In this document: piece by piece, positions 23,066 through 28,994 of the stretch
Position numbering within the stretch: position 1 is the stretch's first letter
Layout: the number at the start of each line of letters is the position of its first letter
Virus record (IMG/VR): IMGVR_UViG_3300042923_000600
Location: 1 to 28,994 of that record
DNA: 28,994 bases
DNA from: a virus
Reading direction: 5' to 3' (one strand)
Program-made: the position numbers and the translations under genes
The notes under the pieces: model-generated
What the model was told of the DNA's origin: nothing
What the model saw: the letters and a program-made list of their open reading frames with translations, nothing else
Databases searched by the model: none

Positions 23066-23437
23066 CTAGCCGATTGACAGGGAGTTGTTGATCAGGTTCA
23101 GCGAGATGTACTCACCGCTGGCCTTCCTGACCTTGAGGAACAGGTCGTACTGCGAGTTGTAGAGCTGGCAGTACGCGAGAGCCGAGTAGAGGTCGTCGCC
23201 GAACCTCTTGGTCTCGATGAAGTCGCCCGAGACGGAGTCGTGGAGGGTGACGGTGACGAGCTCAATGTCCAAGCGACTCTTGAGAGAGTCGAGCTCGGTC
23301 TGGAGGCGTTCGAGCTTACGCTCGTAGCGCGACCCCATGAGCATGAGGATGATCAAGCCGGATGCGCTCGCTCCAAGGAGCATGGCACCGAGAGCTATGG
23401 TCATCAACTGCTCTGTCGTGATGATGAGAGATCCCAT
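23066..23437 (-). CDS. Membrane-anchored coiled-coil protein, 123 aa
   Basis: ATG 23437 has AAAGGAG upstream. Residues of about 12-34 form one hydrophobic span (TIALGAMLLGASASGLIILM), followed by a charged coiled coil (YERKLERLQTELDSLKSRL) and a soluble beta-rich C-terminus with FGDDLYSALAYCQLYNSQYD. It is the first gene after the promoter at 23637-23642, with a 200-base leader containing a three-armed inverted repeat. The function is unknown. Confidence 0.75.
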   Translation of the reverse strand: MGSLIITTEQLMTIALGAMLLGASASGLIILMLMGSRYERKLERLQTELDSLKSRLDIELVTVTLHDSVSGDFIETKRFGDDLYSALAYCQLYNSQYDLFLKVRKASGEYISLNLINNSLSIG

Positions 23438-23505
23438 CTCTTCTTCTCCTTTGATTTAGTTATGAATAAACTAATTGTCTATTCTTCTACCAGAAAACAT
23501 TCTAT

Positions 23506-23551
23506 TGTAGATGGCGATAGCAATCGCCTGAGCATAGCTATGCTCTCTACA
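23506..23551. repeat. Three-armed inverted-repeat element (three-way junction)
   Basis: TGTAGA (23506-23511) pairs with TCTACA (23546-23551). Inside are GGCGAT-AGCA-ATCGCC (23513-23528) and the perfect 16-base palindrome GAGCATAGCTATGCTC (23530-23545). All pairs are Watson-Crick, so the strand is undecided. On the minus strand it lies in the leader of the membrane gene. It may be an RNA regulatory element, a protein site or an origin-type DNA structure. Confidence 0.6.
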
Positions 23552-23636
23552 CATTGTGATAACGAATTTCTAGTGCTGAGCACGAAGTGCTAGCTGTATA
23601 TTGCAATTCTCGGCGGAGCCCTCTGTCCTAGCGTCC

Positions 23637-23642
23637 ATTATA
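23637..23642 (-). promoter_or_regulatory. Promoter -10 box TATAAT
   Basis: On the minus strand GAGAGCTATAATGGAC matches the TATAATGG boxes at 6335 and 18743. It would start a transcript near 23630 that runs through the three-armed element to the membrane gene at 23437. The -35 is not recognisable. Confidence 0.5.
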
Positions 23643-23704
23643 GCTCTCCTCGTCCAGCGCCGCCTACGCCTGCGACCGGAGGTGTAGCAGGCGAGAGACT
23701 AAGT

Positions 23705-24071
23705 GCTTCTATTCCCGTATCGCGGGGTATTTGGCGCCAGTAGAAGCTGTATTAGAAGCGCCCCCCCATGCGAGACATGGTGAGTTGGGCTCTAAATATC
23801 TTCGTAGACTACCGTAGACTCAAAAACTACCATTCTTGCGGAATCCCGTATGATTACACGAGTGAGATCATAGATAGATCTCACGTGCTACAAGAATTTG
23901 GAAAAGAAAAATGTAGTACAGAAATGTGTAATCATAGTAAATTCTACCACGACTGGGTAGTTTTGGGTCTACGGGTCTACGGAGGTAATTCGCTCATGTC
24001 TCGTATGGGAACCCGCTTCTAATCTACCCCTGATACGGTGATTAGAAGCAGTTGCTACGGTGAATAGAAGC
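23705..24071. repeat. Dispersed 7-mer TAGAAGC / GCTTCTA repeats
   Basis: TAGAAGC occurs at 23741, 23753, 24043 and 24065. Its complement GCTTCTA occurs at 23705 and 24015. The copies can pair in alternative ways: 23705 with 23741, 23753 with 24015, or 24015 with 24043 (GCTTCTAAT/ATTAGAAGC, nine bases perfect). They frame the structured RNA and could be switching or processing elements. Confidence 0.55.
23751..24023 (+). ncRNA. Candidate large structured non-coding RNA
   Basis: Helices by eye, outside in: H1 23751-23760/24014-24023 (10 bp). H2 23765-23779/23995-24009 (15 bp, one G-U). H3 about 23795-23831/23956-23990 (about 30 pairs, small bulges, three G-U). H4 23849-23859/23926-23936 (11 bp). 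H5 hairpin 23862-23869/23877-23884 (8 bp, 7-base loop). H6 hairpin 23885-23892/23912-23919 (8 bp, one G-U). H5 and H6 stack in a three-way junction closed by H4. All wobbles are G-U on the plus strand and would be A-C on the minus strand, so the plus strand is the likely RNA. GC content and codons are unlike the flanking genes. No known family was recognised; style and phage context recall ROOL/GOLLD-type ornate RNAs. Confidence 0.6.
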
Positions 24072-24143
24072 TCGATGGCAGCCCCCTATAGCTTACGTTT
24101 AGCTACTCAGCCTGCCACATGGCTTGTTACGTATTGTGAAGGG

Positions 24144-24218
24144 CAGACTGACGTTCGTAGTCTAGTGACCGGACAAGTCTTAGACATGTCTAGGTCACTA
24201 GGTAGGAGCGTTAGTCTG
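24144..24218 (+). ncRNA. Second structured RNA element with competing hairpin
   Basis: CAGACTGACG (24144-24153) pairs with CGTTAGTCTG (24209-24218), with one G-U on the plus strand. Inside, CTAGTGACC (24162-24170) pairs with GGTCACTAG (24193-24201), capped by GACA/TGTC and GTC/GAC around a TTA loop. The 5' arm can also pair with CGTAGTCT (24156-24163), a mutually exclusive fold. It may be a further domain of the RNA at 23751-24023 or a separate switch. Confidence 0.5.
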
Positions 24219-24261
24219 TTCTCTTTATGTTATCGTCATTTCCTCGTTTGGTTGTGGGTCT

Positions 24262-24279
24262 CGTCACTGTCCAGTGACG
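24262..24279. repeat. Perfect inverted repeat CGTCACTG/CAGTGACG
   Basis: CGTCACTG (24262-24269) and CAGTGACG (24272-24279) are separated by TC. It could be one more hairpin of the structured plus-strand transcript, or a DNA-protein site. Confidence 0.45.
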
Positions 24280-24339
24280 CAGGCGCAATAAGCTAGAACT
24301 GAGACATGGACGTGCATTATTGTTCGTCTATTGTCGTTA

Positions 24340-24374
24340 GATAAAAAGAAACAGAGCTAGGCTCTGTCCCTTTT
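24340..24374. terminator. Bidirectional terminator
   Basis: ACAGAGC-TAG-GCTCTGT (24351-24367) is a perfect 7-bp hairpin. On the minus strand it is followed by TTTCTTTTTATC, ending the 114-aa gene transcript. On the plus strand it is followed by CCCTTTT, which would end a transcript coming from the structured region. Since no plus-strand protein gene lies upstream, the second half supports a non-coding plus transcript. Confidence 0.75.
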
Positions 24375-24387
24375 AGCCGATGCCGTG

Positions 24388-24732
24388 TTACGGCTTGGCT
24401 GTTGCAGTCTGCTGCGTGAACGCGTGCAGAGCTGCTGTGACGGCCTGTGCCACGATCGTGGCGATGTCCGTCTGTTGTGCGGCTGGCTGTGCCTTGCCGA
24501 CGTTGTTGATGTCCATGATGGCGAGAGCCTTGCTGCGTGCAGCGTCGTCTTCGCGTACCTGGATGCGTCCGGTGTTGTCGACGTAGAGCAGTGCTCTGGT
24601 CGCGAGATCGCTGCCCTGGATGGCGAGCTGGGTCTCGTTGTATGCCTTGGTGGATTCGCTGTCCACCATCTTGTTGACCAACCTGTTCGTGGGATCGAAC
24701 ATGTTGCTGACAAGCTGCTCCTGGAAGCTCAT
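24388..24732 (-). CDS. Hypothetical protein, 114 aa
   Basis: ATG 24732 has TAGGAG at good spacing. The protein has a helical N-terminal half (MSFQEQLVSNMFDPTNRLVN), a short beta part (LLYVDNTGRIQVREDD) and an Ala/Gln-rich helical C-terminus (IATIVAQAVTAALHAFTQQT). The family is not recognised. It is the first gene of the minus arm and a monocistronic unit ending at the bidirectional terminator, so it may be expressed very early. Confidence 0.75.
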   Translation of the reverse strand: MSFQEQLVSNMFDPTNRLVNKMVDSESTKAYNETQLAIQGSDLATRALLYVDNTGRIQVREDDAARSKALAIMDINNVGKAQPAAQQTDIATIVAQAVTAALHAFTQQTATAKP

Positions 24733-24885
24733 TGTGACTCCTAGTGTCTAGTGTAGTACCTTAGTTAGTACCGATTAACCTATTTGATTTGTGTAGCCTT
24801 GGGCTACTTGTTTGTGACGTTAAAGTCACTTATTTACTACTATATACATAGTAGGGGGGTATAGTGTGTTGTTATTGTTTAATTG

Positions 24886-24891
24886 TATAAT
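24886..24891 (+). promoter_or_regulatory. Putative plus-strand -10 box TATAAT
   Basis: AATTGTATAATATCG is a perfect -10 within an AT-rich stretch. A transcript from here would carry a hairpin-rich leader of about 300 bases to the giant gene. No good -35 lies at 16-18 bases. Confidence 0.4.
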
Positions 24892-25160
24892 ATCGATCTG
24901 CTCCGAAAGAAATTCCAAATTCTTGTAGCCAGGTTGCTACAGACCCATGTAACACATGGAAACGAGGATAGTCTCCTCTCGACCTCCCGATTTAGCCAAA
25001 ACCGGTACAGGCTACTGGGCTAGTCTCCAGGTCTGGAGGCTTGTCTCCCGGCAGCTCCCGAAAGCGGCCAGAACGCGGTGCGCGCAGCCCGGTTAGCCAC
25101 ATGCTCCAGAAGATCGTGATCCACGGCGAAACGCGGCGGCCAGCGGATGGGGTGCCGGGC

Positions 25161-25170
25161 GGGGTAGAAT
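25161..25170 (+). promoter_or_regulatory. Putative late promoter -10 box (GGGGTAGAAT)
   Basis: This is identical over ten bases to 21-30, with AGCGG at 25142-25146. It lies 40 bases before the giant gene start. The shared element at the head of both plus-strand blocks suggests a common late regulator or polymerase. Confidence 0.45.
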
Positions 25171-25209
25171 TAGAGCGTTGCCCCTCATGCTCTCGGAAAG
25201 TTGGTCCTC

Positions 25210-28200
25210 GTGGCTCGCGACTGGTCCTCGTTCGGCGGTACGAGCAACGACGACGCCCAGGATGTTGCGCCCGCGAAGGGAACCGACTGGTCGCGCTTCG
25301 GCGGTACGGGAGTCAGCAACAAGCCGTGGGAGCAGGGTGTCGGCTGGCAGGCCGGTGGCCAGATGGGCTCCACAGCCAACGCCTTCGACAACGAGTTCTA
25401 CGACAAGTGGAACCAGGACATCGAGAAGGCTCAGAAGGAGAACCAGCTTCTCGACCTGTACGACAAGAACCGCAAGTTCACTGGCATCGTCACCCGCGAC
25501 GACGCAAAGCACGGTGTCAAGTTCGGTGACGTCTATCGAGACGGCGAGAAGCAGTTCAACATGCTCGACGACGCGGACATCCCGCGCGCTGAAGCGTACC
25601 AGATGCTCGCCCGTGTCACGCTCAGCGACGATGAGCTGGCTCACGCGCAGAACCAGGACCGTCTCGAAGAGATGGTCGAGGACAAGCGACGCGTCAGCGA
25701 GAACGACGCTCGCAAGGGCCGCTCCGCGAAGGCGTTCGACGACAAGGTGCAGTCCCGGCAGGAGGAGTTCAACGCCGGGCTCGGCGACGAGGCGCTCATT
25801 GTCGGTGCCAGCGCGGGAGGCGCCGCAGCTGCTCTTGGTATCGCCGCCACCGCTGCTGCTGCCACAGGTGTAGGCCTCCCGGTTGCTGCACTGCTCGGTA
25901 TCGGCGCACTTGGTGTCGGCATCGGTGCTACCGGCGGGCTCATGAACAAGGACCTGCTCAGCGAGAACGCAGCTCGCCAGCAGATTCTCATCGAGGAAGC
26001 GAACCGGCGCAAGGACGGTGCCGGAGTCGCTCAGTTCCTTCGGAGCTTCGGTGAGGTCTACGGCCAGTCGATCCAGCCTGCTACCAACATCGTCATGGGT
26101 GGTCAGGACCTCATCGCGGGTGGAGGGAAGTGGAACAATGAGTCGGACTGGTACGCCACGGACCCCGAAACCGGAGAGTCTCTTCGGCACGGCTTCTGGG
26201 ACGCTGCTCGGTTCGGGGCAGGCGCTGTCGACGCTTTTGGAAGCTCAGCCGGAGCAGGTCGAATCGCGTACGTGGGAAGCATCGGAGCTTCCCTACTGGG
26301 CCAGGGCACACAGCTCGGGTACCAGGGCGAGATCTTCAACGACCGGTCCGGGGAGTTTCAGAGTATCTACACCAACGAGCAGGGCGAAGCGGACCCGTTC
26401 CGCGCCGCCAGCGCGTGGGGAGCGTTCGGCATCGACGCCGTCCAGTCCCTCGGAGTGCAGGGGATGCTCTCATCTTCGATTCGGCGAGGTCAGGGTACCA
26501 CTGGTCTGGCCAACGAGCGAGTCACGGCGGGCGGGCGATCGTTTACGCTTGACGCCGATGGAAGAGCTACCGGTCGAGCTGGCTTCGATGTATCCTTCCT
26601 GGCTCCTTCTGAAGCCTTCCGAGGCGTCACAGCTGCGAGCCTTCTCCGACTCAAGAACCGCGGCAATGTCGTAACCGCAGACGAGCTCTACCGTGCCGTC
26701 CGGAACATCGAGAACAAGGCCGGTGCGGGCTGGGGCGCGACTCTGACGACCGGCCTCGCGGAAGGCTACGAGGAAGGCGTGCAGGCCCTGCTCAACCAGT
26801 GGGCGACCGGCGAGGAGTTCGACCTCGACGAGATCGTTTCCGGCGCGACGCAGGGTCTGAGCGCCGGTCTCGGTATGGGTGCTGCAGGCGCGCTCATGGC
26901 GAGGGGCGGAGACAAGAGGCTCCGCGACCAGGCCAATGCTGCCCGCGTCGTCACTGCTCGCCCGGACGAGATGGATGCTCTCAAGCCCATCTCGGACGAG
27001 GAGTGGAGCAACATGACGGACACGCAGAAGCGCGTGGCCGCCAACCTCAACACGGTCGAGACCGCGGCCATGCAGACCGCACTCGGCAACGTGAGTCTCC
27101 AGCAGGCGAAGACGATCCTGCTCAAGGACCCTGCTGCTCAGCAGCGCCTGGACATCGCACGCATCGCGCTCAGCGAAGCAGAGATGCGGAACGCTGCTCC
27201 CAACACCAAGTCCTACATGCGCATCACAGCGTTCGAGGACACGAAGATTCCTGGCGACAAGGTCCAGGCCTCGTTCGCTCGTGTCGGTGAGCTCATCGAG
27301 GACCAGCGCGTGGCCCTGGAGCTCATGGCTCGTGGCGGCGCGGCTGACCAGCAGATCGACCCCGAGACCGTGCAGATGGCCGGAGAGGCCGTCGCCGAGC
27401 TCGACCAGCTGGTGCCCTGGATGCAGAACCAGATGGTCGCGTTCTCTCGAAGCAACCGTCGCGAGCGCGCATTCATCATGGACCAGATCAATGCGGTGCT
27501 GGACCACTGGGGCTCGGGCACGCCGGTCGACACGAACCTCAGCCTCCCGGAAAACCTCGTCACGACGGACCCCGCGCTGGCTCTGAGCCGTGCTTACGCG
27601 GTCAGCATCAACTTCGCTCGTGACCCGATCGACCAGAACATCTCGTTCCAGCTGCTCGTCCCCACAGTCTCGCAGACGATGACTGAGATGAACGCGAACC
27701 AGACGATTCAGGTCTCGTACTCCATCCTCGACGCGATCGGCGGAGACTTCGACGGTGACCGTATCCGGTCCGTCCAGCGTCTCGCCACGAGCCCTGCCGA
27801 GTTCCGCCGTGCTCGTTCGGGTCAGCGCTCTCTCATGAGCGACCGGACCAGTGCCATCGCTGAGCGCCACTTCGAAGAGGCCTGGCTCGACAACTACCGC
27901 CAGGCAGCACAGTCGCAGCAGATGCAGGACCTTCTCCTGCGCACACGCGCGAACGTGCGCTTCGCCATTCGTGATCAGGTCGACGCCGACCCCATCCTGC
28001 AGCAATACATCTCTCAGGCCTTCGCCCAGATCGAAACGGGGTCGAAGACAGCGATCAAGGACTTCGTGACTGCCGTCATGAAGGACACTCGCATTGCACC
28101 GAGGCTGCTTGCTAAGGGAGCCGACGGCCTGTTCAACGTTCCGGAGAGGCTCAACCGCCTCTTCAGCAATGCGATGGCGGACTTCAGTCAGCGACTCAGT

Positions 28201-28994
28201 GTCGTGACGGCTCCCGACCCCATCGTGTACGATGTCAAGGACCCCATCCCCATGAAGCAGGGTGGGCCTGTCATTCGTGAGCGGCGCGCGGTAACGGCTG
28301 GGCGCACCATGTTCCAGGAGAGCCCGGCAGCTCAGATCTTCCGGATCTTCCAGGAACTTCGTTACTCGCCGCTCCGAACCCCGGTGGAGGCACGCCACCT
28401 CGTCGACCGGGAAGAGCCTCTCCTGGCCGACCTGCAGGCTCTGTACCTGCAGATCGGCCAGGGTGAGGTTGAGAGTGTTGTCGAAGCGGCGTACGCCGAC
28501 TCCGAGGTCAACGCTCGCGTGATCGCTTGGACGCAGCAGATGTCCGACGAGAGCGCTCGTCAGGGTGAGCGCATCCCCGTGGCGGTCCTGGCCTCGATGG
28601 CTGTGCCTCACTTCGGTCAGGACGGTCGCTTCGACGGCTACGTGACGCTGACGCAGTCCCTGCTGGAGCGCTCGATCGCCATCGACGAGTCCAAGTACGG
28701 GCCACTCATCTCGGGTGACCCGAACCTGCAGGCTCGCTTCACCAAGCTCCGTGAGATGACGAAGCCGCCTCGCTCGGACTCGAAGGCCCCGGTTCACAAG
28801 AAGCGTGCCGGTGCGGCGTTCGTGTATGTCTACGGCCAGATGTCGGTCCGTGACCTGACCGAGATCCACGGTTCGATCCTCAACGACCAGGCCACGATCG
28901 ACGAGCTCTACCGCTCGTACCGTGACCAGGACTACCACGGTCGCCACTCGTGGATGAAGTCGGCTAAGACCAGTGGACAGTACCCCGAGTTCAT
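25210..28994 (+). CDS. Giant protein, 5' part (at least 1261 aa), candidate DFDGD-type RNA polymerase/virion protein
   Basis: The gene is open from GTG 25210 to the window end. GGAAAG lies nine bases upstream; TTG 25201 is an alternative start. The N-terminus repeats DWSSFGGT and DWSRFGGT. Residues of about 196-250 form an Ala/Gly-rich hydrophobic hairpin (ALIVGASAGGAAAALGIAAT and beyond) that could insert into membrane. Residues 804-851 contain RDP (804-806), then SYSILDAIGGDFDGDR with Asp846, Asp848 and Asp850. This resembles the catalytic double-psi barrel motif DFDGD of cellular beta-prime, YonO and crAss-like phage RNA polymerases, including the upstream Arg-x-Pro spacing. A virion-ejected polymerase would fit the size and membrane segment. 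The polymerase call is inference from one motif; the gene itself is certain. Confidence 0.8.
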   Translation, partial: MARDWSSFGGTSNDDAQDVAPAKGTDWSRFGGTGVSNKPWEQGVGWQAGGQMGSTANAFDNEFYDKWNQDIEKAQKENQLLDLYDKNRKFTGIVTRDDAKHGVKFGDVYRDGEKQFNMLDDADIPRAEAYQMLARVTLSDDELAHAQNQDRLEEMVEDKRRVSENDARKGRSAKAFDDKVQSRQEEFNAGLGDEALIVGASAGGAAAALGIAATAAAATGVGLPVAALLGIGALGVGIGATGGLMNKDLLSENAARQQILIEEANRRKDGAGVAQFLRSFGEVYGQSIQPATNIVMGGQDLIAGGGKWNNESDWYATDPETGESLRHGFWDAARFGAGAVDAFGSSAGAGRIAYVGSIGASLLGQGTQLGYQGEIFNDRSGEFQSIYTNEQGEADPFRAASAWGAFGIDAVQSLGVQGMLSSSIRRGQGTTGLANERVTAGGRSFTLDADGRATGRAGFDVSFLAPSEAFRGVTAASLLRLKNRGNVVTADELYRAVRNIENKAGAGWGATLTTGLAEGYEEGVQALLNQWATGEEFDLDEIVSGATQGLSAGLGMGAAGALMARGGDKRLRDQANAARVVTARPDEMDALKPISDEEWSNMTDTQKRVAANLNTVETAAMQTALGNVSLQQAKTILLKDPAAQQRLDIARIALSEAEMRNAAPNTKSYMRITAFEDTKIPGDKVQASFARVGELIEDQRVALELMARGGAADQQIDPETVQMAGEAVAELDQLVPWMQNQMVAFSRSNRRERAFIMDQINAVLDHWGSGTPVDTNLSLPENLVTTDPALALSRAYAVSINFARDPIDQNISFQLLVPTVSQTMTEMNANQTIQVSYSILDAIGGDFDGDRIRSVQRLATSPAEFRRARSGQRSLMSDRTSAIAERHFEEAWLDNYRQAAQSQQMQDLLLRTRANVRFAIRDQVDADPILQQYISQAFAQIETGSKTAIKDFVTAVMKDTRIAPRLLAKGADGLFNVPERLNRLFSNAMADFSQRLSVVTAPDPIVYDVKDPIPMKQGGPVIRERRAVTAGRTMFQESPAAQIFRIFQELRYSPLRTPVEARHLVDREEPLLADLQALYLQIGQGEVESVVEAAYADSEVNARVIAWTQQMSDESARQGERIPVAVLASMAVPHFGQDGRFDGYVTLTQSLLERSIAIDESKYGPLISGDPNLQARFTKLREMTKPPRSDSKAPVHKKRAGAAFVYVYGQMSVRDLTEIHGSILNDQATIDELYRSYRDQDYHGRHSWMKSAKTSGQYPEF

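Follow-up and report, generated by a model that had tools for sequence, protein, structure and literature searches.

Antisense RNAs of the ColE1 RNA I and CopA type are stem-loop RNAs in which a loop matches a leader sequence, and the ROOL and GOLLD RNAs are large structured noncoding RNAs of phages. Origins consisting of iterons and a stem-loop occur in rolling-circle plasmids and in circular single-stranded DNA viruses. The locus analyzed here is a long foldback in a noncoding gap of a phage genome. Unlike in the RNA I and CopA systems, its predicted target is on the same strand at a distance of about 1 kb. As with ROOL and GOLLD, it is a large structured noncoding stretch in phage DNA; however, it is a single long foldback of repeats without any Rfam match, and kinship with these RNAs, to which an earlier sequence-only reading had likened it, is not supported. 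As in iteron-plus-stem-loop origins, lineage-specific repeats lie close to a conserved hairpin, whereas here several such hairpin boxes occur in both orientations in a double-stranded DNA tailed phage, and no Rep-type initiator was identified.

Among the mycobacteriophages of cluster A, those without RepA have RNA-based prophage origins that need a transcribed noncoding region, according to the accessible part of the source (PMC7157519). As far as that part goes, the likeness, which is one of description and not of sequence, is to an actinophage noncoding region of some hundred bases that is transcribed opposite to the neighbouring gene and is required for replication. However, the origins described there are prophage origins beside parABS in temperate phages, whereas repeats and a hairpin box dominate here. 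For lytic relatives of the present phage, no parABS is reported, and the accessible part of PMC7302621 reports no integrase or repressor. The early promoters of phage N4, as described in the available portion of PMC4496689, are also comparable, being small hairpins with conserved stem bases and a loop that contains purines, found in a podophage that likewise has a giant protein. The boxes differ in that the loop has five bases instead of three, they occur as inverted pairs and the polymerase is only a candidate.

In the literature on cluster EK, Eekayvirinae and actinophage noncoding RNA, mostly outside subscription papers, no mention of a structured RNA or of repeats in the gap was found; this holds for PMC8281081 and for the accessible parts of PMC7302621, PMC12022796, PMC13014141 and PMC13069448.

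In this study, the window, i.e. the whole stretch of DNA analyzed (an IMG/VR virus record of 28,994 bases), was compared with related genomes. Tentatively, the foldback is read as a plus-strand antisense-type regulatory RNA in an iteron-like control region of an Eekayvirinae-related podophage. The main rival, a DNA-level element without RNA function, most likely a replication origin, is nearly as likely because sequence alone does not separate the two.

The gap, its relatives and the fold

Parts of the DNA polymerase side of the window are resembled by 33 phage records of Microbacterium podophages, some of which carry the subfamily name Eekayvirinae, and judged by this resemblance the phage is a relative of that group. 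The closest relative found, G001, shows 91% identity over a 921-base query; G002 and G010 come next, with 72% and 61% identity, respectively, over the first 400 residues of the giant protein. Weak BLAST matches (E 0.9 to 3) pointed to the corresponding gap in named phages. The set of 31 genomes examined is not an unbiased sample because the box, or a similar gap, was what led to many of them. Searches for further members of the clade returned seven stretches with the P_R pattern (three known relatives and four without boxes nearby), two loci with the giant protein, both already known, and four loci by alignment, namely three known ones and a distant relative, L183, which was left out of further comparisons. 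According to the accessible parts of the sources, KingKamren has direct terminal repeats of 203 bp (PMC12022796), and Akoni, TinyTimothy, ArMaWen and others of its cluster are circularly permuted (PMC7302621, PMC8281081, PMC13014141).

The features are collected in Table 1. To the right of the gap lie a minus-strand gene, a second gap and the giant gene. Both flanking genes are on the minus strand, and the plus-strand foldback is antisense to them, as had been read from the letters; its GC content, which had been called lower than that of the surroundings, is 0.432, compared with 0.597 for the window.

Table 1. Positions of the features in the window
Feature	Position	Strand	Remark
Flanking gene ORF	23066-23437	-	
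Noncoding stretch NC1	23438-24387		Between two minus-strand genes; holds the foldback
TAGAAGC repeat	23705-23711	-	
TAGAAGC repeat	23741-23747	+	
Foldback element, inverted-repeat arms closing a three-way junction	23751-24023	+	Fold, shuffles, rank, double-sided changes
TAGAAGC repeat, left arm	23753-23759	+	
Hairpin box CCATGCGAGACATGG, exact	23766-23780	+	Conserved in relatives
Three-way junction	23849-23936	+	Predicted de novo folds of G001 and G010 contain a similar junction
Apical stem-loop stretch, complementary to the giant-gene leader	23887-23903	+	17/17 inverted match
Hairpin box, two mismatches, inverted	23994-24008	-	
TAGAAGC repeat, right arm	24015-24021	-	
TAGAAGC repeat	24043-24049	+	
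TAGAAGC repeat	24065-24071	+	
Long hairpin followed by TTCTCTTT	24144-24226	+	Alignment with G001
Hairpin resembling a terminator, directly beyond the upstream minus-strand gene	24346-24372	-	
Flanking gene ORF	24388-24732	-	
Promoter-like GGGGGGTATAGT upstream of the giant gene	24854-24865	+	Conserved
Complementary site in the giant-gene leader	24913-24929	+	
Start of the giant gene (13 kb, cut by the window end)	25201-28992	+	Possible RNA target

The plus strand of the foldback has a minimum free energy (MFE) of -129.6 kcal/mol (z -13.7) and the minus strand one of -108 (z -9.9); in neither case did any of 200 shuffles fold as well. With a linear GC correction, none of the 576 stretches of 273 nt compared outranked the element on either strand; the list contains it twice, from the 50-nt grid and as a separate addition. 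The plus-strand MFE structure has 102 pairs and ten helices of at least 4 bp, and at its end the helices 23849-23859/23926-23936, 23862-23869/23877-23884 and 23885-23892/23912-23919 form a three-way junction. The claim of a large branched plus-strand structure ending in such a junction is thus confirmed. Nine G-U pairs are present in the whole structure, among them all five that the sequence-only reading had named (23770/24004, 23799/23985, 23802/23982, 23820/23966 and 23887/23917). Rfam 15 gave no match at the gathering thresholds in the whole window and none up to E 1 in 23437-25210, in agreement with the statement that the element belongs to no known RNA family. The exact fold is restricted to the clade of the window. 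Among relatives the number of boxes, their orientation and the centre of the element vary, and the notion of one large conserved ornate fold is not supported.

For covariation, the window, G001 and G010 were aligned by sequence alone, with the fold of the window as the reference. Double-sided changes were found in 14 of the 102 pairs, compared with an average of 4.6 in shuffles, none of 500 of which reached 14; a slid alignment as a control gave two to five such pairs. G001 keeps 91 pairs, with one double change and seven broken pairs, whereas in G010 38 pairs are unchanged, 13 are doubly changed, 11 are singly changed and 37 are broken. Pairs are therefore kept by double-sided changes, as in a structured RNA, and nearly all of these changes come from one relative, G010. 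Helix 6 has them in four of its 11 pairs; in the loop-bearing helix 9, which is paired to 66.7%, they are absent. The covariation among homologues that the sequence-only reading had called for is thus seen in this set, but not by the same count in Akonivirus, where nine sequences have double changes in four of 102 pairs, a number reached by 92 of 500 shuffles. In the same nine sequences the doubly changed cells number nine, compared with 3.1 in shuffles (0 of 500 as many), the covariation score is also above shuffles and further pair types are not. An extruded DNA cruciform would retain the same double-sided changes, a point that counts for the origin explanation.

An 84-codon ORF at 23768-24022 was ruled out as a coding gene; in G001 it contains stops and a shifted frame, so the amino-acid conservation that would have spoken against the helices is absent there. 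To the right of the foldback, at 24258-24299, a small hairpin followed by GCAGGCGCAATAAGCTAGAAC is strongly conserved in the window, G001, G002 and G010, and Burro and further relatives have sequences like it; it is possibly a separate small structured element.

Strand preference and the giant-gene leader

The plus strand folds better than the minus strand in 19 of 23 genomes, whereas the minus strand does so in G003, Fede, CrunchyBoi and Pabst. Alifold gave -73.5 for the plus strand versus -58.8 for the minus strand in the set of the window, and -132.7 versus -122.8 in Akonivirus, in which the minus-strand fold has more doubly changed pairs than the plus-strand fold (seven versus four). The G-U pairs had been taken as the mark of selection on a plus-strand RNA. 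A bias towards the plus strand is seen only with isolated mismatches inside helices, three of which in the window are G-U on the plus strand and none on the minus strand, and not when all aligned arm mismatches are taken (four versus five). With two matched bases required on each side, 16 representatives gave 24 G-U mismatches on the plus strand versus six on the minus strand (p 0.0014); with one matched base, the numbers were 39 and 23 (p 0.056). The window, G002 and G010 alone gave five versus zero (p 0.06). Outside the boxes and their five flanking nucleotides, 13 isolated mismatches versus four were counted in the representatives. Composition predicts a plus-strand share of 0.51. The 16 representatives were taken from the 23 genomes after exclusion of close kin (G001, Dashyla, Astartes, Mazun, Zhengyi and LilyLou), and the count was also made without L053, which has no such mismatch, seven later-added genomes and Burro. 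The G-U strand bias thus varies with how the mismatches are counted, and the p values are optimistic because related sequences are not independent and strand-biased mutation could give the same sign.

The apical loop of the window is complementary to the leader of the giant gene over its full 17 nt, a result reached by none of 300 shuffles, and no third copy of this sequence was found in the window at up to three mismatches. In G001 the complementarity extends over 16 of 16 nt, and in G010 it is a gapped match of about 24 nt with flanks that differ from those of the window on both sides. A gapped test of the whole stretch was positive for the window, G001 and G010, with none of 300 shuffles reaching the match in any of the three, while G002 (p 0.013) and Phedro (p 0.037) had nominal matches on the same strand. 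The ungapped test picked out the window and G001, whereas G010 scored 27, with shuffles reaching 31. Complementarity is therefore present in three of 22 genomes, from two lineages of the clade of the window, and absent in 19. The hairpin of the window pairs with its own leader at -27.8 kcal/mol and with that of G010 at -25.4 kcal/mol (lowest of 300 shuffles -21.1 kcal/mol). The corresponding values are -24.7 and -17.0 kcal/mol for the hairpin of G001 with its own and the G010 leader (lowest of 300 shuffles -17.3 kcal/mol), and -26.8 and -17.0 kcal/mol for that of G010 with its own and the window leader (lowest of 300 shuffles -19.2 kcal/mol). When the whole noncoding region was folded against the leader as a duplex, the energies were near those of shuffles among the rows listed. 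The leader also holds CCATGTAACACATGG at 24945-24959, a box-like palindrome without the GAGA loop.

A plus-strand RNA would fold into a long arm made of inverted copies of a lineage-specific repeat together with the hairpin box conserved in the group, and the tip at the three-way junction would expose AGAATTTGGAAAAGA. The exposed 17 nt would pair with the 5' leader of the mRNA of the giant gene, which lies on the same strand at a distance of about 1 kb and about 50 bases downstream of the conserved GGGGGGTATAGT, and expression of the giant gene would thereby be delayed or lowered. Transcription, the ends of the RNA, its pairing inside the cell and whether regulation is negative are inferred. 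The same region may also be a replication origin.

Sites for the initiation and termination of such an RNA were sought in the sequence. A sigma-70 scan of 23400-25250 found no promoter. GGGGGGTATAGT and its variants occur in all 20 genomes scanned; its matrix score is circular because the matrix was built from those sites, whereas the conservation itself is direct. To the right of the foldback, plus-strand terminator hairpins score 39 in G001 and 43 in G010 (the latter also 39 on the minus strand), while the window has no plus-strand match. The long hairpin of the window was not called as a terminator, although its short counterpart in G001 was, on the plus strand. In G002, L119 and several others, plus-strand matches fall only on the terminator hairpin of the upstream minus-strand gene. 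Because of this pattern across genomes, plus-strand termination is weak evidence.

Repeats, hairpin boxes and a possible DNA origin

If the element acts as an origin at the DNA level, the repeats would serve as binding sites of an initiator, which would open the box or extrude it, and the RNA-like fold would be a by-product of inverted repeats. The layout of the gap, with lineage-changing repeats beside a conserved box, inverted arms and an AT-richer centre, would be that of such a site. The 15-bp hairpin box CCATGnGAGACATGG has 121 copies (83 distinct with their context) in the same gap of the 31 genomes, in either orientation, and its number and orientation vary as those of a DNA site do. 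This list admitted up to three mismatches and kept only matches containing GAGA, so that the constant GAGA is partly built in. At up to two mismatches, one to seven copies per genome are found in either orientation, and the box is present even in the distant singleton Burro. Pairing of the bases adjacent to the box was within the shuffle range at 12 distances, with distance 2 at the shuffle maximum. In IMG/VR the exact 15-mer occurs in at least 119 stretches; among the matches listed, five have at least two copies of the 13-base core, and all five are from genomes with a relative of the DNA polymerase of the window. Most of the single exact matches are probably due to chance. The box is present in all four polymerase relatives whose contigs hold the region (G001, G003, G009 and G010); two more, G007 and G008, complete the six polymerase relatives, and by gene spacing their contigs should end before it.

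All six exact copies of TAGAAGC in the window lie within 23705-24071, whereas for TTAGAAGC with one mismatch allowed six of 11 window matches lie in the gap, 11 being the chance expectation. The repeat changes with lineage, being TAGAAGC in the window, CGGTTACG in Akonivirus, GCGAACCG in Tinytimothyvirus and GTTACCT in Burro. In Astartes 11 of 12 copies of CGGTTACG are in the gap, yet only 11 of 19 of the shorter GGTTACG. The short repeats thus form an array limited to a single noncoding region, as those of iteron-type origins do. In its anatomy the gap content is that of an iteron array, and the repeat-and-box array is the feature common to the group. The arms are able to pair because they are inverted copies from this array, which resembles a DNA control region just as much.

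An origin would further agree with the concentration of lineage-specific repeats in both orientations in the gap, and with the constant position of the gap upstream of the replication-gene side of the genome. However, neither the G-U bias towards the plus strand nor the complementarity of loop and leader follows from an origin by itself, the cumulative GC skew has a maximum, not a minimum, near the gap, and no initiator was identified.

The giant gene and the meaning of the locus

The giant protein, the role of which was left open in 2020 (accessible part of PMC7302621), provides a lead on a virion RNA polymerase. The frame 25201-28992 contains GGDFDGDRIR at residue 849, which resembles the catalytic DxDGD motif of two-barrel RNA polymerases. 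This motif is invariant in six of six aligned giant proteins, those of the window and G001 being nearly identical, and reads DNDGD in Astartes and DFDGD in Burro. In P23-45 a giant virion polymerase was found through DFDGD, according to the available portion of PMC10770324. A profile search with the giant protein gave unrelated top matches (E 0.11) and RNA polymerase gamma at E 1.4. Pfam and PHROGs gave nothing at the limits used, except for three PHROGs matched by one member each (E 0.03 to 0.06), and the predicted structure has a pLDDT of 36. As a virion RNA polymerase, the giant protein is a lead only.

The boxes might then be hairpin promoters or binding sites for an N4-like virion RNA polymerase, namely the giant protein. 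The N4 enzyme reads extruded hairpin promoters, as far as the accessible part of PMC4496689 describes, and with P23-45 as a precedent the motif agrees with this explanation. It is nevertheless very unlikely, given that the N4 enzyme is of the T7 type and not of the DxDGD type, that no polymerase match was significant and that the orientation of the boxes is inconstant. Still less probable is a minus-strand leader RNA of the leftward operon containing the foldback, for although the minus strand also folds strongly and Tinytimothyvirus-type and related genomes have a second, minus-strand copy of the GGGGGGTATAGT core on the right-hand side of the boxes, the window, G001 and G002 yielded no copy of this kind, the minus-strand terminator of the upstream gene scores at least 35 in 16 of 18 genomes scored and the plus strand folds better.

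The plus-strand regulatory RNA remains the reading that is tentatively preferred. The control region is described here for a group of Microbacterium phages with many isolates, and no earlier account of it was found; the analysis also sets up a clear test of an RNA versus a repeat-based origin in these phages. It is rather unlikely, on present estimates, that the arms of an iteron-like origin array give rise to a plus-strand RNA whose three-way-junction loop controls the leader of the gene for a giant virion protein, perhaps a packaged RNA polymerase; if this is true, one RNA would link the control of replication with the early transcription of the next infection.
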